Source of the DNA: Peptococcaceae bacterium
Lineage (GTDB): Bacteria > Bacillota > DSM-12270 > Thermacetogeniales > Thermacetogeniaceae
Reading direction: 5' to 3'
NCBI GenBank assembly: GCA_023249405.1
Contig: JAHFCR010000019.1
Location: forward strand, 1-49,002
Length of the DNA stretch: 49,002 nucleotides
Part shown: one piece after another, positions 23,105 to 36,164 of the stretch
Layout of the letters: each line of letters opens with the position of its first letter
Numbering within the stretch: the first letter of the stretch is position 1
Notes under the pieces: model-generated
Database searches by the model: none
What the model was told of the DNA's origin: nothing
Seen by the model: the letters and a program-made list of their open reading frames with translations, nothing else
Program-made: the position numbers and the translations under genes

Positions 23105-23475
23105 ATATTAGCAATGATGGAGAAAAGTAGCCGTCGAGAGTGCATGGCAGCGAGCCGGGAGGGTGAGAACCGGCTGACTTGAGCGGCGAATGGCGCTTCG
23201 GAGCACGGTCGCCGTCTTTTTAAGACGGCAGGCTTGTAGTACTGAAAGAGAGGGCGCCTGTCAACGTGTTCTTAGCTTCAGGCGGGGGCTTGCTTTCCCC
23301 CCAACTAAAGCTTAGAAATCGTGATCCAGGGACGTAGCCGCTCTTATCCTACCGCTTCAGAGAAGCGGGGGCATTAGAGCGGGTAGTCATCGGGTCAAAG
23401 GCGCCAAGCAGGGTGGAACCGCGGTCAACACCGTCCCTGCAGCTATCACGGCTGCAGAGGCGGTGTTATTATTTT
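23105..23475 (+). promoter_or_regulatory. Glycine T-box riboswitch controlling glyQS
   Basis: Stem I can be read: AGTA (23126-23129), GCCGT (23130-23134) pairing with GCGGC (23183-23187), an apical GGGTGAGAAC, then the specifier loop GAAT-GGC with codon GGC (Gly) at 23192-23194. A second hairpin (23211-23218 with 23222-23229) follows. The T-box sequence AGGGTGGAACCGCG is at 23410-23423, followed by the terminator stem AACACCG...CGGTGTT (23427-23467) and a T-rich tail. Uncharged tRNA-Gly should favour antitermination. The leader is about 370 bases, much longer than the usual glycine T-box; a dispersed repeat (23274-23397) fills the excess. Confidence 0.9.
23274..23397 (+). repeat. Dispersed structured repeat, copy D, inside the T-box leader
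   Basis: Left end AGCTTCAGGCGGGGG matches copies A and B and folds on CCCCCC and AAGCTT; TTAGAA follows as in B. The right end is a CCGCTTC-AGA-GAAGCGG hairpin followed by ATTAGAGCGGGTAGTCATCGG, nearly the same as the right end of copy A. It lies between the second T-box hairpin and the antiterminator. Confidence 0.65.
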
Positions 23476-23544: not shown

Positions 23545-24561
23545 ATGGCTTGCTGGACTTTTCAAGAAATTATCCATGATCTGAACGAATACTGGGGCCG
23601 GTATTGCCTTTTGCAGCAGCCGTACGACATGGAGAAGGGGGCGGGCACTATGAACCCGGCCACTTTCCTGCGGGCATTGGGGCCCGAGCCCTGGAACGTG
23701 GCCTACGTGGAACCGTCACGCCGGCCAACCGACGGCCGGTACGGGGATAATCCCAACCGGCTGCAGCATTACTACCAGTATCAGGTGATCCTGAAGCCGT
23801 CGCCGGACGATGTGATCGACCGCTACCTGAACAGCTTGACCTATCTGGGTATCGACCTGCGCACCCACGATGTGCGCTTCGTGGAGGACAATTGGGAATC
23901 ACCGACCCTTGGCGCCTGGGGCCTGGGCTGGGAGGTCTGGCTGGACGGGAACGAGATCTCCCAGTTCACCTACTTCCAGCAGTGCGGCGGGGTTGACTGC
24001 CACCCCGTCAGCGCCGAGATCACCTACGGTATCGAACGGATTGCCACCTACATCCAGGGAGTCGACAGCATTTACGACCTGATCTGGAGCGGGAACACCA
24101 CCTATGGAGACGTTCACCATCAGGGAGAGGTAGATTACTCCCGCTATAACTTCGAGGTGGCGGATACCAAAATGCTGTTCACCCTGTTCGACATGTTCGA
24201 GCAGGAGGCCTCCAGGGTGGCCGCCGAGGGACTGGTGCAGCCTGCCTATGATTATACCCTGAAGTGCTCCCACACCTTCAACCTGCTGGATGCCCGCAGC
24301 GCTATCGGTGTCTCCGAGCGCACCTCCTACATCGGCCGGGTGCGGCACCTGGCCCGACTCTGCGCCGAGGCCTATCTCTCTCAGCGGGAGCGCCTGGGCT
24401 ACCCGCTGATCAAAGAGGATGCCGCCAGGGAAGCCCGGGGGCTGCCGCCTCTGGGAGTTGCAACCAGAGTGCGTCCGCCGGCGCCGGATGCCAAAAGCAA
24501 GAAGCGAGCAACCGGCGTGCGTGGCGGAGCTAACAGCGCACCCGTACTGAAGGGGGAGTAA
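23545..24561 (+). CDS. glyQ: Glycyl-tRNA synthetase alpha subunit
   Basis: 338 residues. The catalytic class II core starts [38 protein letters not shown] and carries the family motifs ([29 protein letters not shown] as motif 2 area; [18 protein letters not shown] as motif 3 area). The alpha subunit activates glycine; the beta subunit, encoded three bases downstream, supplies tRNA recognition. The chain is about 40 residues longer than usual; the extra tail is basic, Pro/Ala/Lys/Arg-rich and probably disordered. Expression is under the T-box upstream. Confidence 0.97.
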
Positions 24562-24564
24562 GAG

Positions 24565-26631
24565 ATGGACTTTCTACTGGAGATCGGGACCGAGGAACTG
24601 CCGGCTCGCTTTGTCACTCCGGCGATAGCCCAGTTCGAGGAACTTGGAGAGAGCGCCCTCCGGAGCAACCGGATTGCTTTCAAGCGGCTGGCCACTTTCG
24701 CTACACCCCGCAGGCTGGCCCTCTATGTGTGGGAGATTGGCAAGCAGCAGGCGGACCTGGTAGAAGAGGTCAAGGGGCCATCCCGCAAGGCTGCTTTTGA
24801 CGAACAGGGCCATCCCACCAGGGCGGCGGAGGGTTTTGCCCGCAGCCAGGGAGTGCCGGTCACAGAGTTGGTAGTGCAGATGACATCGGGTGGCGAGTAC
24901 GTGTTCGCCAAGAAGCGCCTGACTGGCCGGGAGACCAAGCAGGTACTGGCGGAACTGATCCCGGGACTCATCGGCAGCCTGTCTTTTCCCAAGCCGATGC
25001 GCTGGGGCGACCGGGAGATCAAGTTTGCCCGGCCAATCCGCTGGTTCGTATGCCTGCTGGGTCAGGATGTGGTCGATTTCGAGTTTGGACAGTTGCATCC
25101 AGACCGGCTCACCTACGGGATCCGTAATTTTTCCCGGTCACCGGTGGTGCTAGCCAGGCCTGCGGATTACTTTAAAAAGCTGTCACGGGTTGGAGTGATC
25201 GTCGAGCAGACCCAGCGCCGGCAGTTGATCTGGCAGCAGGCCCAGGATGCGGCTGCGGCGGTCGGTGGCAAGGTGCTGCCGAACGAATCGTTGCTGGAGG
25301 AGGTGGCCAACCTGGTGGAATACCCGACCCTGATCTGCGGCAGCTTTGACCCCCGCTTTCTCAAGCTGCCACCGGAGGTGGTGATCACTCCGATGCAGGA
25401 CCACCAGCGTTACTTCCCGGTCTGGAGCGAGGGTGGCCAACTGCTGCCCAGGTTCCTGGCCTTTGCCAATGGCCCGGTAAACCCGGATCTAGTCAGGTCC
25501 GGCAACGAGAAGGTACTGCGGGCGCGCCTGTACGATGCGGAATTCTTTTACCAGGAAGATATTAAGAGCCCTTTGGCGGACAAGGTGGAGAGGCTGCGGG
25601 AGATCGTCTTCCTGGAGGGTCTGGGGACGATCTACGATAAGGCACAGCGCATCCAGCTTTTAACCCATTATCTGGGTAATGCATTGAAGCTCACCGCCAA
25701 GCAGCGGCAGGATGCGGAGCGGGCAGCCCTGCTGGCCAAGGCCGACCTGGTGACCAGCATGGTCTATGAATTTCCTGAACTGCAGGGCGTCATGGGGGCC
25801 GCTTACGCCGCGGTGGACAAGGAGAAAAACGAAGTTTGCCAGGCGATCCGGGAGCACTATCAGCCCCGGTTTGCAGGGGACGAACCGCCGGCCGGCAATC
25901 CGGGGGCGTTACTGGCCATTGCCGACAAGATCGATAGCCTGGTGGGGTGTTTCGCCCTGAAGCTGGAGCCCACCAGTTCTCAGGATCCGTATGCTCTGCG
26001 GCGTCAGGCCCTGGGCATCTGCCACATCGTCATGGCTCACCGGTTCAACTTCTCCATGCAGAGGCTGATCGAACAGGCTTATCAGGGGTTCGGCCAGTAC
26101 CGGCTGCAGGCCTCCCTGGATGACGTTGCCGGCCACCTGGAGGAGTTCTTTCGAGCCCGGTTGCGAAATCTGTTCATGGACCAGGGCTACAGCTACGATC
26201 TGGTAGAGGCTGCCCTGGGCAGCAGCAGCGACCGGATCATCGCCGCAGATAAGCGTTTGCAAGCCCTCAAAGCGCAGCGCCACACTCCGGAGTTCGAGGC
26301 CCTGATGACAGCCTACACCCGGGCGGCGAACCTGGCCCGCCATGCTACTATCAGCAGGATCGATCAGGCCCTGTTTGTCGAGGACGGAGAACGCAGCCTT
26401 TATCAGACCTGGTCTCGCATTAAAAAGGAGATCACCCGTCTGGCTCAGCGCGATCAGATCGAGCGTGCTCTGCTGGTGGCTGCCGCCTTGCTGGAACCGA
26501 TGGGCCGTTTTTTCGAAGAGGTGCTGGTGATGGTCGATGATACTGCTGTTCGGGCCAACCGCCTGGCATTGTTGAAAGATATTTCTTCGACCTTGAGGTT
26601 ATTCGGCGACCTGGATAAAATCGTTCGTTAA
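24565..26631 (+). CDS. glyS: Glycyl-tRNA synthetase beta subunit
   Basis: 688 residues, normal length, beginning FLLEIGTEELPARFV, with an HD-like segment (RLREIVFLEGLGTIYDKAQRI) and a C-terminal DALR-type anticodon-binding region (residues about 575-688, ending in DISSTLRLFGDLDKI). It partners GlyQ in the alpha2-beta2 enzyme. AGGGGGAG overlaps the end of glyQ ahead of the ATG. Confidence 0.97.
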   Translation: MDFLLEIGTEELPARFVTPAIAQFEELGESALRSNRIAFKRLATFATPRRLALYVWEIGKQQADLVEEVKGPSRKAAFDEQGHPTRAAEGFARSQGVPVTELVVQMTSGGEYVFAKKRLTGRETKQVLAELIPGLIGSLSFPKPMRWGDREIKFARPIRWFVCLLGQDVVDFEFGQLHPDRLTYGIRNFSRSPVVLARPADYFKKLSRVGVIVEQTQRRQLIWQQAQDAAAAVGGKVLPNESLLEEVANLVEYPTLICGSFDPRFLKLPPEVVITPMQDHQRYFPVWSEGGQLLPRFLAFANGPVNPDLVRSGNEKVLRARLYDAEFFYQEDIKSPLADKVERLREIVFLEGLGTIYDKAQRIQLLTHYLGNALKLTAKQRQDAERAALLAKADLVTSMVYEFPELQGVMGAAYAAVDKEKNEVCQAIREHYQPRFAGDEPPAGNPGALLAIADKIDSLVGCFALKLEPTSSQDPYALRRQALGICHIVMAHRFNFSMQRLIEQAYQGFGQYRLQASLDDVAGHLEEFFRARLRNLFMDQGYSYDLVEAALGSSSDRIIAADKRLQALKAQRHTPEFEALMTAYTRAANLARHATISRIDQALFVEDGERSLYQTWSRIKKEITRLAQRDQIERALLVAAALLEPMGRFFEEVLVMVDDTAVRANRLALLKDISSTLRLFGDLDKIVR

Positions 26632-31176: not shown

Positions 31177-33459
31177 TTAGTTATTTAAATTGAAACGTTT
31201 TTCTGCAAATATTTTTAAACATACATCCACAGCTTCGGGGTCGTAAAGGACGCCCCTGTTTTGCCGTATTTCGTTTAACGCCTCATCGATCGGCATTGCC
31301 GGGCGGTAGGGACGATGCGACGCCATCGCTTCGACGACATCGGCGACCGCAATAATTTTTGCCTCCTTTAAAATGTTTTCTCCCGACAACCCTTGTGGAT
31401 ATCCTGATCCATTCAGCCTCTCGTGGTGTTGCAAGATGATCTCTGCAATGGGCGATTGGAATTCTATAGCCTTGACAATATCGTAGCCGGCCTGCACATG
31501 CACCTTCACGAAAGCCCGTTCAATATCATTCAGTTCTCCCGGTTTGCTCAGCACTTCCGAGGGAATGGCGGTTTTTCCGATATCATGAATTAGCGCCGAA
31601 GTTCTGATGACGTTTATTAGCGCCGCTGGCATTTCGAGGCCGGCTGCTATTGCGCATGCCAGATTGGCTACTCTGTTTTGATGCTCGGCGGTATAGGGGT
31701 CTCTCAGCCCTGCCATGTGCGACAGGGACTTTACTGTTTGTTCGAGGGTTATCTCGAGCCTTGCGTGGCTCAGGCGCAGCTTTTCCTCGGTTTGCTTGAC
31801 TCCCGAAATGTCGCTGATAAACAATACGACAAGCGTGACACCGGATAAATCGATGCTGGAGATCTCCATAAAGATCGGAAAACTTGAACCATCTCTTTTC
31901 AGCCCAATCGTTTCGAACAGCCTTGGCACGACCTCCCCGTCCGCATGTCTGGCGATCATTTCCAAGATATTTTTTCTCAGATGAGGCACGATATACTCTG
32001 TGCAGTTTCGATCATATAATTCTGAATTGGTACGCCCGAACATGGACAGGCATGTTTGATTGGCAAGCAGTATTTTACCATCATGCCGGCACATGACAAT
32101 ACCCATCGGGGCATTCTCAAACAGGGCTCGAAAGCGCTCCTCGCTCTGTTGCAAAGCTATGCCCAGCTGCCTCTTTTTGGTGATATCCTGGCCGGTGGCG
32201 ATCACGTATTCGATAGCCGATGCTTCGTTAAGCAGGACGGTCTGCCGCCACGCTATCAGGCGGTGGTCACCTTGCTTGGTAATCCAATGGTTCTCGCCGC
32301 TGCTGGGAAAGTTGCTGGCGCATAGCTGCAGATAGGCCTTTCTGATCTTTACCGCTTCTTCGGATGGGAGAAGAAAATCCCAGAATATTTTTCCTTGCAC
32401 CTCTTGGAAGCTGTACCCGGACGCCGATTCGCAGGCATGGTTGAAGCGGATGATATGCCCGGCGGGGTCGACCACCGCCACCAGCGTTCCTGCCGTATCG
32501 AGTACTGCATTGGAGAAATCCCGCTCTCGCTCCAGCGCCTGCTCTGCCTGCTTGCGCCTGGTGATGTCCCGGGCTGCGCTTAGGATCATCTGCCTATTCC
32601 CCGTCCGTATGACCCGGGATTTGACCTCGGCCGATAGCCAGGCGCCATTCCGGGATGCAGTGGCCTCAAATATACAGTATCCCTGTTTCTTCAGCTCCTC
32701 TATCTTGGATCGCTTATAACCTGGCGATTCCCCGATGGGCAGGTTAAAAATGTTTATTTGCATCATCTCTTCCTTGGTGTAGCCAAAGAAGCTGCAGACC
32801 ACCTCATTGGCATAGTATAGATTGCCATCAAAGTCGTGGAGAACTATGGCATCGTTGGCGCTGTCCAAGAGCAATGCCCTGAGAGCCAGTTCTTGCTCCG
32901 CTCGTCTGTGTTCGGTGATATCCTTGGAGACAGTAATTACGGCAACAGGATTTCCATGCCTGTCTTTAATGAGACCGCCAGTAAGCTCGAACTCGTATTC
33001 CCGCCCCTCTTTGTTTACCAGAGTGAACTCATATGCCCTCATTGCATCCTGCTTGATGATCTTTTTCATGTTTTCAGAAGCCATCCGGCGGTCCCGGGGA
33101 GCGATCAGACCGTAGGCGCTCTTGCCCAGTATCTCCTCTTTTGTAAGACCGGCCACATCAAGGGATGACTGGCTGCAATCAATTATTGCTCCCGAAAGAT
33201 CGGTTAACACAATGCAGTGCGGGGAGTATTCCAGGATCATGCGCAGTTTTTCTTCTGATTCGTAAAGGGAGTTTTCATCCTGCCTACGCTTGGCGATCTC
33301 CTCCGTAAAGCTGATGCTGGCAGGACTGTCGGGCGAGTCAGGGCGGGCCGTGTTTTGCTGTTTGCCTGCTCCCTCAGGCCCCGTGAATGCGTTTAATTGT
33401 TGCCGCAATCTTACAACCTCGTCTATAAGTTGCTCCCTCGTTTTATTCTGGTCCTTCAT
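31177..33459 (-). CDS. Multi-PAS HD-GYP protein, probable c-di-GMP phosphodiesterase
   Basis: 760 residues, no membrane segment: four PAS/PAC domains (about 70-185, 192-305, 312-430, 437-565; each ends in an ISVxDIT-like segment) and an HD-GYP domain (about 575-755). The HD-GYP core has the HD pair in ALIHDIGKTAIPSEVL, a later His in HVQAGYDIV, HHERLNGSGYP with the GYP signature, and VADVVEAMASHRPYRP. This family hydrolyses c-di-GMP. A c-di-GMP-I riboswitch lies upstream in the same direction, ahead of the DUF2225 gene, which ends 120 bases before this start. PAS ligands are not readable. Confidence 0.93.
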   Translation of the reverse strand: MKDQNKTREQLIDEVVRLRQQLNAFTGPEGAGKQQNTARPDSPDSPASISFTEEIAKRRQDENSLYESEEKLRMILEYSPHCIVLTDLSGAIIDCSQSSLDVAGLTKEEILGKSAYGLIAPRDRRMASENMKKIIKQDAMRAYEFTLVNKEGREYEFELTGGLIKDRHGNPVAVITVSKDITEHRRAEQELALRALLLDSANDAIVLHDFDGNLYYANEVVCSFFGYTKEEMMQINIFNLPIGESPGYKRSKIEELKKQGYCIFEATASRNGAWLSAEVKSRVIRTGNRQMILSAARDITRRKQAEQALERERDFSNAVLDTAGTLVAVVDPAGHIIRFNHACESASGYSFQEVQGKIFWDFLLPSEEAVKIRKAYLQLCASNFPSSGENHWITKQGDHRLIAWRQTVLLNEASAIEYVIATGQDITKKRQLGIALQQSEERFRALFENAPMGIVMCRHDGKILLANQTCLSMFGRTNSELYDRNCTEYIVPHLRKNILEMIARHADGEVVPRLFETIGLKRDGSSFPIFMEISSIDLSGVTLVVLFISDISGVKQTEEKLRLSHARLEITLEQTVKSLSHMAGLRDPYTAEHQNRVANLACAIAAGLEMPAALINVIRTSALIHDIGKTAIPSEVLSKPGELNDIERAFVKVHVQAGYDIVKAIEFQSPIAEIILQHHERLNGSGYPQGLSGENILKEAKIIAVADVVEAMASHRPYRPAMPIDEALNEIRQNRGVLYDPEAVDVCLKIFAEKRFNLNN

Positions 33460-33579
33460 CGAATGCCTCCATAACCTCCATAATTGAAATAGAATTATCA
33501 GGGATCCGCGTGGCGTCTTGAACAGGAATTTGAGATGACTGTTGGGCCCTGCGATCTTTAAGTTGTATAGTTGAGCTGG

Positions 33580-34563
33580 TTACCTGGCAGCGGCTCTGAT
33601 CTCTTGGATGCCATCCCGGGCAAAATCTTTGAGAATACTATTGCTGTTTTCTTTATGATGAGCAACCTTGAAAAAATATTGGTGAGCCTTCTTGAGGTCG
33701 CCGAGCCGCTTGCTGAGTTCGCCAATGATGTACATAACCTGGATCTCCATCGCCGGGCTCATAGAGCGCGATTCGAGGTAGAATTGCTCATAGAGCGCGG
33801 CCGACTTATTTCGGGCCATGTTCGCTGTCTCTGTGTCTTCTATGCTTTCATAGATCCAGGCCAGGTTCAACCAGGCCCGGCCTAGCATATCAAGGGAGAA
33901 CTGGCCCCGCTCCAGGACCTCGGCGGCAAGACGGTATCTGGTTATGGCGGTCTGGGCCTCACTTTTCAGGTTGTTTTGACCGGCCAGCAACTTGATTCTG
34001 TCTGCTATGGCCTCCTTGAGAATCGCCTTCTGATTGTCGGTGATCTCCGAAAAGCGATGGCCACTGAAATTGGCATACAGGCATTTTGGGCACACCCAGA
34101 TCCGGTAATAAGCCGGTTCGATATCTTTGAAGTGCTTTCTCGTATCCCTGTCCATGCTGATCTGCTGAAGTTTACTCTCGAACAGCTTGATGCCTTTGAA
34201 GGTCTGGCCGCAGACAGGGCAGACGGCATCAACCTCGAAGAAATATTTGGGGCCGCCATGACCTTCAACCGGAATAGCCTGAAGTTCCGCCAGACGGGTC
34301 TCACATACGATCTGGTCTGCAATCTCGGGTCGTATCCGTCTCAGTTTTTCCAGAGGGATGAAGGCTATCTGAGCATCCTTATCGACGCAGGCCTGCGAAC
34401 CGTAGGCAATAACCGCTCCGGGACCCAATGCCTGCTTTCCTGCCTGAGAGGTGACCAGCACCCGGCCCTGCAATACCAGGCAGCACTGGTCGGGGCTGTC
34501 AAACACTATCTCGCTTCCGGCTCTGATCTCGATAATTTCTTCGCTTTCCATACCAAGCATCAT
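33580..34563 (-). CDS. DUF2225-family zinc-ribbon/TPR-like protein with N-terminal cNMP-binding-like region
   Basis: 327 residues. Residues about 100-180 carry the DUF2225 zinc motifs CPVCGQTFKGIK and VWVCPKCLYANF (here IWVCPKCLYANF). The C-terminal half is helical with TPR-like features (AEVLERGQFSLDMLGRAWLNLAWIYESI; IIGELSKRLGDLKKAHQYFF). The first about 80 residues (IIEIRAGSEIVFDS, CCLVLQGRVLVTSQ, LGPGAVI) resemble the beta-roll of cyclic-nucleotide-binding domains, which DUF2225 proteins do not always have. Start region is preceded by GGGAGATG. The riboswitch terminator lies 260 bases upstream with a dispersed repeat between. Confidence 0.8.
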   Translation of the reverse strand: MMLGMESEEIIEIRAGSEIVFDSPDQCCLVLQGRVLVTSQAGKQALGPGAVIAYGSQACVDKDAQIAFIPLEKLRRIRPEIADQIVCETRLAELQAIPVEGHGGPKYFFEVDAVCPVCGQTFKGIKLFESKLQQISMDRDTRKHFKDIEPAYYRIWVCPKCLYANFSGHRFSEITDNQKAILKEAIADRIKLLAGQNNLKSEAQTAITRYRLAAEVLERGQFSLDMLGRAWLNLAWIYESIEDTETANMARNKSAALYEQFYLESRSMSPAMEIQVMYIIGELSKRLGDLKKAHQYFFKVAHHKENSNSILKDFARDGIQEIRAAAR

Positions 34564-34598
34564 CTCCCTTAGTCAGTCCTGGCCCATAAAGAAAACTT

Positions 34599-34826
34599 AC
34601 TTCAGGCGTGGTTTTAACTCTAACTGAAGTTTAATTGACTTACCCCGCCGGGGTACCAGAACGGGGCACCCGGCTTAGCGCCACTTACCTGTGCCGTTTT
34701 CCACGTGCAGGCGGCTTTCAGCCTGAAGCGAAGCTTCAGAGCCTGCCTTCAGGCCGGGCGTTAGCCCGGATACGGCGCTCCCGCCTAAGAGGTGGGAGTA
34801 TTAGTGCCGGTTAGTCATCGGATAAA
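34599..34826 (+). repeat. Dispersed structured repeat, copy A
   Basis: Left end ACTTCAGGCGTGG folds on CTGAAGT (34599-34632). The middle is dense in short hairpins (GGCTTTCAGCC, TGAAGCGAAGCTTCA, CCGGGCGTTAGCCCGG). The right end is a CTCCCGCCT-AAG-AGGTGGGAG hairpin followed by TATTAGTGCCGGTTAGTCATCGGAT. No ORF inside. Hairpin-bearing ends of this kind are typical of IS200/IS605-group elements, so this may be a non-autonomous relative. It separates the riboswitch terminator from the gene it should control; the terminator's T-run overlaps its right edge. Confidence 0.65.
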
Positions 34827-34865
34827 AAACAAACCCCCATTCCGAGATGCCGCAATAGGGGTTGC
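34822..34865 (-). terminator. Riboswitch expression-platform terminator
   Basis: Minus strand: AACCCCTATT pairs with AATGGGGGTT and is followed by TGTTTTTT. It directly follows the c-di-GMP aptamer. The CAACCC of its 5' arm is complementary to GGGTTG in the aptamer's 3' strand, so the two can compete. Confidence 0.85.
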
Positions 34866-34975
34866 GTGTTCACGCTCCGCTGGCAACCCGACCGTCATGG
34901 CTTGGCAGCTTTAGACTCGTTGGCTTTGCGTCCCCGGCTTTCACCGGGTTTGCCCTTTGCTATTTCTACTGATTG
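34866..34975 (-). promoter_or_regulatory. c-di-GMP-I (GEMM-I) riboswitch aptamer
   Basis: On the minus strand the conserved blocks occur in order: GGGCAAACC, a CCGG-TGAAAG-CCGG stem with GAAA-type tetraloop, GACGCAAAGCC, a second stem with a TCTAAAG...CCATGA internal loop like the 11-nt tetraloop receptor, and CGGGTTGCC closing P1. These match Vc2 and other GEMM-I aptamers. A terminator follows, whose 5' arm can pair with the aptamer's GGGTTG. Stabilising the aptamer should free the terminator, so c-di-GMP probably turns downstream genes (DUF2225, HD-GYP) off; that direction is inference. A TATTATATATT stretch near 35014-35025 may be its promoter -10 region. Confidence 0.9.
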
Positions 34976-35048
34976 TCTGTTCATTCTACACAAAGCGATT
35001 AATTCCTGCATTATTGTGAATATATAATACCGTAGTCCTATAGTGAGT

Positions 35049-36164
35049 TCATGCTGAGGCGCTGGATATGGCTCTGACTCCGAGAAAGCGGGCCACATCC
35101 TCGATTTCTGCTTCCAGACCCGGGCGTGTATCGGGGGCAAGGCTGCTGAATGGCTCGATGGCCACTTCCAGGTGATCCTTATGCCACTTGGTGCTCCACG
35201 TTCCCTGTACAAAGCCGTCCACCAACAGCGTCGGGCGGATCGCTCCGCCGCCGGAGTTGATGCGTTTGGCATGCTGCGGAGCGGAGATTAAATCGCGGTT
35301 GGCATACCCCAGCAGATAGGTGTCATAGGCAGGCAGCAGGCGTACGCTGGGAGAGTGGGCGGGTAGTTCGTCCAGCCATGAGATCTGCGTTTTGAGCATC
35401 CAGGCAGGCAATTCACCGATCGACACTGCGGTCAATTCGCCTGCGACGAGATTCCACGCTCTGCGTACCTTGCTGGCGTTAAGCCCGGACCAGGCGGCCA
35501 GGTCTTCAGGACCTGCCGGTCCGTAGGCGCTAAGATAACGGCGGGCGATAGCGGCCAGGGCGCCATCCTGCGTCAGGGAACGTCCCCGGTCAGTCCAATC
35601 ATCAATCAGTACGTAGGCCGGTTCATCGCCCCGATGCGGCCCCAGGCAGAGCACTCCTTCGAGCGCCGCCCTGCTGATGAGGTGGTAGAGCGCCTGGCCT
35701 TCGGCCACGATGTCATGGTCGCTCAAGTACCGGGCGATCTCGCTGCGGGTCAGGGGGCCATGGCTGGCCAGCGCCTCCCGGATTGCCTGGATGGCGGCAG
35801 CGCTGAAATTCTCATCCAGTCCTAGCTGTACATATCTCCGGCGGTTGGTCGCGATCCGGTCGGGGCCCAACAGCGGCAGCAGCCACCCGATGTCGTCCGC
35901 AGCCAGCAAATGCAGGGCGCCGCGCTGGCACCAGGTTCGTATCACAGAGCGCTCTTGCCAGAGGGCGCTCTCGACGCTGGCAGAGGTCGGCTCTACACTG
36001 CGGACCCGTACTGCGAGCATGGCTGCAGATAGATCCTGGGCCTGCAGCCCGCACACTTTCTGCACAACCTGTTCTACGGAAGAGGCAGCCTTCCGCCGGC
36101 ATTCCAGCCCCTGGGCGCGGGTCCGCAGCTGGCGCGCCTGATTATCGGATAGTGAAATGGTCAT
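35049..36164 (-). CDS. Winged-helix DNA-binding domain protein (AlkZ/HTH_42 family)
   Basis: 371 residues of the PF06224 type: N-terminal LQAQDLSAAMLAVRVR, a middle CQRGALHLLAADDIGWLLPLLGP, SEIARYLSDHDI wing segment, and C-terminal LLVDGFVQGTWS. Family members include AlkZ-like DNA glycosylases that unhook crosslinks (Streptomyces AlkZ, E. coli YcaQ/AlkX). Whether this protein keeps glycosylase activity depends on a QxQ/QxD catalytic motif that I cannot place confidently. The c-di-GMP riboswitch begins about 75 bases after its stop. Confidence 0.82.
   Translation of the reverse strand: MTISLSDNQARQLRTRAQGLECRRKAASSVEQVVQKVCGLQAQDLSAAMLAVRVRSVEPTSASVESALWQERSVIRTWCQRGALHLLAADDIGWLLPLLGPDRIATNRRRYVQLGLDENFSAAAIQAIREALASHGPLTRSEIARYLSDHDIVAEGQALYHLISRAALEGVLCLGPHRGDEPAYVLIDDWTDRGRSLTQDGALAAIARRYLSAYGPAGPEDLAAWSGLNASKVRRAWNLVAGELTAVSIGELPAWMLKTQISWLDELPAHSPSVRLLPAYDTYLLGYANRDLISAPQHAKRINSGGGAIRPTLLVDGFVQGTWSTKWHKDHLEVAIEPFSSLAPDTRPGLEAEIEDVARFLGVRAISSASA

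Follow-up and report, generated by a model that had tools for sequence, protein, structure and literature searches.

A well-described counterpart of the element studied here is Cd1 (Cdi1_3) of the C. difficile flgB operon, a cyclic di-GMP (c-di-GMP) riboswitch with a GEMM-I aptamer and a separate downstream terminator, whose ligand-free antiterminator takes up an aptamer strand, breaking the aptamer, and whose ligand stabilises aptamer and terminator together (PMC9262584, PMC3649979), and negative control by c-di-GMP was described for the C. difficile class I switches (PMC3649979). GEMM elements were also placed upstream of diguanylate cyclase (DGC) and phosphodiesterase (PDE) genes by Sudarsan et al. 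2008, according to the passage of a review citing that work (PMC3971182). The binding of cyclic GMP-AMP (cGAMP) by class I GEMM aptamers goes with G20A (PMC6274999), and this G20 versus A20 ligand rule is also supported by PMC11218506. Here we analysed a 49-kb stretch of DNA from a Peptococcaceae bacterium (the window; contig 164 in a draft assembly of 3.57 Mb), whose minus strand carries, downstream of an AlkZ-like gene (35049-36164), a c-di-GMP-I aptamer, a terminator, a DUF2225 gene and a gene for a protein with four PAS domains and an HD-GYP domain (4xPAS-HD-GYP). At this locus the two genes are likely controlled as one unit by a Cd1-type c-di-GMP-I riboswitch acting as a transcriptional OFF switch.

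Compared with Cd1, which precedes flagellar genes, the locus shares the aptamer with its separate downstream terminator and the predicted use of an aptamer strand by the antiterminator, but has a DUF2225 and a PDE gene downstream, a weaker P1 helix and a repeat behind the terminator. It shares a downstream c-di-GMP turnover gene with the GEMM switches that the review passage places before DGC and PDE genes, and differs from them in that the PDE gene comes second, behind the DUF2225 gene. Because GEMM elements upstream of DGC and PDE genes are already in the literature, at least in that passage (PMC3971182), the arrangement is known in kind.

Aptamer, terminator and gene order

The Rfam scan matched RF01051 over its full length (1-87) with 75.4 bits (gathering threshold 35 bits; E = 4e-13 over the window), and this GEMM-I was the sole Rfam match at gathering threshold in the window and the only GEMM-I in the whole genome. 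In the cmscan alignment the core agreed with the consensus, including the GAAA tetraloop, its receptor, a G at Vc2 position 20 and the GCC holding C92. The G at position 20 makes c-di-GMP, and not cGAMP, the ligand to expect, and the 7 GGDEF and 11 HD-GYP domains encoded by the genome show that the c-di-GMP machinery is at hand. The description of the aptamer as near-textbook in an earlier sequence-only reading of this DNA thus fits its core and its score, but not its P1 helix, which is nearly absent in the standard register.

Downstream of the aptamer, and not overlapping with it, lies the terminator AACCCCUAUU...AAUGGGGGUU followed by GUUUUUUAU, with a folding energy of -18.9 kcal/mol and a z-score of about -4 versus shuffled sequences. 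Domain searches assigned the following two genes, both on the same strand, to DUF2225 (E = 2e-43) and to 4xPAS plus HD_5 (E = 3e-39). Hence Rfam, terminator folding and domain matches agree on an aptamer and terminator ahead of both genes, as had been read from the sequence. A spacer of 260 nt, mostly made up of a repeat described below, separates the terminator from the DUF2225 gene, and 120 nt separate the two genes. Coordinates are collected in Table 1.

Table 1. Features of the riboswitch locus (window coordinates)
Feature	Positions	Strand	Basis or remark
GEMM-I aptamer with G at the Vc2-G20 position, GAAA tetraloop and weak P1	34879..34964	-	Rfam RF01051
Aptamer 5' strand GCAAAGGG, including the G19-G20-G21 region; partner CCCUaUUGC in the predicted ligand-free antiterminator	34953..34960	-	pairing probability ~0.9 before the terminator is complete
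Aptamer 3' strand GGGTTGC, half of the antiterminator of the sequence-only reading; partner GCAACCC	34883..34889	-	
Switching strand GCAACCCCUAUUGC, used by either antiterminator and by the 5' arm of the terminator	34852..34865	-	
Intrinsic terminator: AACCCCUAUU (34863-34854) / AAUGGGGGUU (34841-34832), U-tract ending TTTTTTAT (34829-34822)	34822..34863	-	-18.9 kcal/mol, z -4.1
Dispersed palindromic repeat in the terminator U-tract, MITE-like (see text)	34586..34821	-	
DUF2225 protein, 327 aa	33580..34563	-	ribosome site AAGGGAG just upstream
4xPAS-HD-GYP protein, 760 aa	31177..33459	-	HDIGK at 625 and HHERLNGSGYP at 678 intact

Antiterminators and the direction of switching

A pairable segment shared by aptamer and terminator had been proposed as GGGTTG/CAACCC. 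This pairing is real and spans 7 bp (GGGTTGC, 34889-34883, with GCAACCC, 34865-34859), and an exact complement of that length occurred in 1.2% of shuffles, although its duplex energy by itself was unremarkable, being reached by 10% of them. Partition-function folding gave it a probability of at most 0.15 at every transcript length, and assigned 0.86-0.93, for RNA 3' ends 34852-34840, to a second antiterminator in which GCAAAGGG pairs with CCCUaUUGC; the proposed segment is therefore neither the sole nor the best-folding antiterminator. Both antiterminators draw on ligand-binding strands of the aptamer. With the aptamer core pairs forced, the antiterminator probability fell from ~0.9 to at most 0.3, and the terminator then formed. 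A same-genus genome (G014) keeps an 8-bp complement between the strands labelled A and T, GGGTTGCC/GGCAACCC, with an unrelated loop between them.

Because aptamer and terminator can coexist while the ligand-free antiterminators take ligand-binding strands, the design conforms to that of Cd1, and the predicted OFF direction is well supported by structure. Folding here differs from Cd1 in favouring the 5' strand of the aptamer in the antiterminator. The earlier proposal that ligand favours termination thus finds its support in the anatomy, as the terminator coexists with the aptamer and the ligand-free folds break it; the ligand response itself we infer from structure. In the proposed mechanism, without c-di-GMP the switching strand would be held by the aptamer 5' strand and/or 3' strand, and the polymerase would read through. 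With c-di-GMP, both aptamer strands would be locked in the ligand-binding fold, leaving the switching strand free for the terminator, and transcription would stop at about 34822. DUF2225 would be the proximal and most certain target and the PDE would be reached by read-through, so that c-di-GMP would repress one of its own likely degraders.

The repeat in the leader and the downstream genes

The 236-nt repeat between terminator and DUF2225 gene, which the sequence-only reading had overlooked, has about 50 matches in this genome; within the family sample of 20 genomes (widening to the class gave the same 20), further matches were confined to the two genomes of the same genus. About 15 copies were aligned, which defined sharp ends, TTTAT-CCGATRGCTAACCGCC... 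and ...AACTTCAGGTGGGGTTAAAACCCCACCTGAAGCAAGTTTCCTTTAT, and TTTAT flanks the repeat on both sides (34826-34822 and 34590-34586), the first being the end of the terminator U-tract, which stays intact. The repeat is very structured (-93.7 kcal/mol) and has no open reading frame (ORF) of at least 60 aa on the leader strand. Across the ~15 copies it shows the traits of an IS200/IS605-derived miniature inverted-repeat transposable element (MITE) of the PATE kind, namely subterminal palindromes, no terminal inverted repeats and a fixed TTTAT-type target at the ends. No PF01797 match for a Y1 transposase partner was found in the assembly, so we name the element MITE-like only. With the element excised in silico, 22 nt separated the terminator from the start codon of DUF2225, and the terminator adjoined the ribosome site; the leader was therefore probably made for DUF2225 at a time before the insertion, and the element would have inserted later at TTTAT, sparing the terminator and lengthening the leader by ~240 nt. 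In G014 the contig with the aptamer breaks off within the expression platform, which makes an insertion-free site unreadable there.

The DUF2225 protein carries four invariant zinc-ribbon cysteines (C115/C118/C158/C161), TPR-like helices and a degenerate N-domain that weakly resembles cyclic-nucleotide-binding domains. The best Foldseek matches of its model were such domains, but their TM-scores were low and every E value exceeded 0.001, so this N-domain may serve as a lead only. As clear cNMP_binding or receiver domains are present in its relatives, the domain make-up lets DUF2225 look like a putative signalling output module; among the three papers found to mention DUF2225, none listed deals with its function. 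In Desulfosporosinus (L191, L194) a response-regulator receiver domain is fused to DUF2225.

In the HD-GYP protein the catalytic motifs, the HD metal site and HHE...GYP, are kept in the alignment to PmGH (4mcw), with the third-metal Glu of PmGH replaced by Tyr, and the domain aligns equally with PmGH and with V-cGAP3 (5z7c), a cGAMP-specific enzyme. The protein is a probable, still putative, c-di-GMP phosphodiesterase. No 9-of-12 promoter match occurred anywhere in 33400-35200, and promoter scores in the repeat were no better than those of shuffles. A simple scan reported no terminator on the leader strand downstream of the switch, nor between the two genes; it had also missed the riboswitch terminator, so that its silence elsewhere is weak evidence. 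The two genes are presumably co-transcribed, and control of the PDE by the switch is plausible.

If aptamer and terminator work but the PDE, and perhaps DUF2225 too, has been uncoupled from them, by an internal promoter or by the mobile element, no feedback would exist. This is suggested by the strongly folded element between terminator and gene, by the second place of the PDE behind a gap holding a weak -10-like GATAAT, and by the orthologous switch-DUF2225-PDE order not being found in relatives, while the missing promoter matches, the shuffle-like scores of the element and the lack of any reported terminator-like site downstream argue for coupling. We regard such uncoupling as unlikely. Under the favoured OFF reading with both genes coupled, positive feedback follows formally if the HD-GYP domain hydrolyses c-di-GMP, and feedback is a reasonable, if tentative, inference. 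The bistable high-c-di-GMP state proposed earlier found no support, the enzyme being one of 11 HD-GYP domains beside 7 GGDEF domains and its nearest solved relatives including a cGAMP-specific enzyme, and bistability is speculation.

The window holds a second leader with an insert, a T-box leader (23105-23441, +) before glyQ (23545-24561) and glyS (24565-26631), whose 139-nt insert, at about 23258-23399, looks in inverted orientation like the ends of the element in the riboswitch leader; this T-box scored 73 bits, under the Rfam threshold of 93. The repeat at the terminator, together with this related copy inside the glyQS T-box of the same window, is the most unusual feature of the locus. A bolder account would have the repeat family settle repeatedly in leader RNAs without breaking them (the GEMM-I terminator U-tract and the glyQS T-box loop), lengthening riboswitch leaders, with c-di-GMP in addition repressing one of its own PDEs and an uncharacterised cNMP-like/DUF2225 signalling protein; taken as a whole, we hold this to be rather improbable. 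Separately, in two T-box leaders of other genomes (L123:4059-4344, G034; L124:1983-2268, G150), a complete tRNA-Ala(GGC) gene (L123:4214-4289) was seen just before the T-box antiterminator motif, upstream of the apparent start of a leucyl-tRNA synthetase gene.

Relatives, remaining alternatives and meaning

Two genomes of the family, G010 and G011 (L033/L034, L044/L045), have a GEMM-I with a terminator directly before a GAF-HD-GYP gene, and a third, G016 (L041), has a GEMM-I-like aptamer followed by a small ORF, an HD-GYP gene and a chemotaxis cluster. GEMM-I on phosphodiesterase genes thus recurs in the family with non-orthologous enzymes, in two other genera. The G010 and G011 loci have in common with the window locus an HD-GYP gene preceded by a class I aptamer and a terminator, and differ in the enzyme (non-orthologous, with GAF instead of PAS), in having no DUF2225 and in the terminator sequence; they are the cleaner candidates for c-di-GMP control of a phosphodiesterase. 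Similar switches with G20 lie ahead of chemotaxis genes in G008 and G009. A sample of 29 GEMM-I loci taken across the wider phylum contained no case of an HD-GYP gene lying 1.5 kb or less away.

DUF2225 was not found in the same-genus genomes G013 and G014, and a first contig scan with the DUF2225 protein as query gave no match. No orthologous operon was found in the same-genus genomes, where the related HD-GYP genes were non-orthologous or cut by contig ends. A phylum search for DUF2225 covered 398 genomes, of whose loci 60 were scanned with Rfam, together with 17 named loci that partly overlap with them. In G330 (L168:2578-5233) a cNMP-binding-DUF2225 gene overlaps a GAF-HD-GYP gene, which suggests that DUF2225 and HD-GYP proteins are functionally linked. 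The encoded order matches that of the window locus, and G330 differs in the overlap of its genes, in another sensor domain and in that no riboswitch was found there.

Several observations weigh against the OFF switch with feedback. P1 has one Watson-Crick pair and one G-U in the standard register and is among the weakest of 41 aptamers compared. Upstream of the aptamer no convincing promoter was found, the best score being equalled by 34% of shuffles. The antiterminator duplex energies are attained in 5-10% of shuffles in this genome. In equilibrium folding with the 3' arm complete, the terminator reached about 0.9 or more with or without ligand; switching would therefore have to be kinetic, as is reported for Cd1. 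A conserved GEMM-I, Bc1 of B. thuringiensis, binds c-di-GMP and leaves expression unchanged (PMC11218506). No GEMM-I was detected by Rfam at the other DUF2225 loci (0 in the 60 phylum and 17 named loci), so that among the loci examined a GEMM-I before DUF2225 was seen here only. The HD-GYP gene is the second one, 1.4 kb downstream of the switch and past a structured mobile element, and the 10 other HD-GYP and 7 GGDEF domains of the genome weaken the feedback idea.

The weak P1, the single genomic copy and the insertion in the leader could also mark a relic, that is a decaying switch whose P1 was lost, whose leader was invaded by a repeat and whose ligand response is gone. We find this improbable, given the 75-bit score, the intact ligand-contacting core and terminator, an aptamer 89% identical over 81 nt to the G014 copy whose flanks have no DNA match, and the want of P1 in this register in several other high-scoring aptamers. 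ON switches of the GEMM type exist, as pilM is a cGAMP ON switch (PMC9262584) and Vc1 promotes expression (PMC4744006), and c-di-GMP promoting read-through would give negative feedback and homeostasis; in pilM, however, aptamer and terminator are mutually exclusive, whereas here they do not overlap and can form together, and it is the competing folds that disrupt the aptamer, which makes an ON switch very unlikely. A loop on cGAMP, sensed and/or hydrolysed here, draws on the equal alignment with V-cGAP3 and on the A20 aptamer of a family member (G016), but hardly merits credence with G20 in this aptamer. That G016 aptamer (L052, G016:C82:40733-40821, -) carries at position 20 the base linked to the binding of cGAMP.

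If the Cd1-type OFF reading of the window locus is right, the family to which the syntrophic acetate oxidiser Thermacetogenium phaeum belongs gains a phosphodiesterase under an OFF-type c-di-GMP switch, and the uncharacterised DUF2225 family would, in one genome, be tied to control by c-di-GMP. The sub-threshold, insert-carrying T-box of the window illustrates how inserted repeats can mask or lengthen the leaders of riboswitches. That GEMM-I stands before HD-GYP genes that are not orthologous in three genera of a single family is a sign that control by c-di-GMP of its own breakdown recurs.

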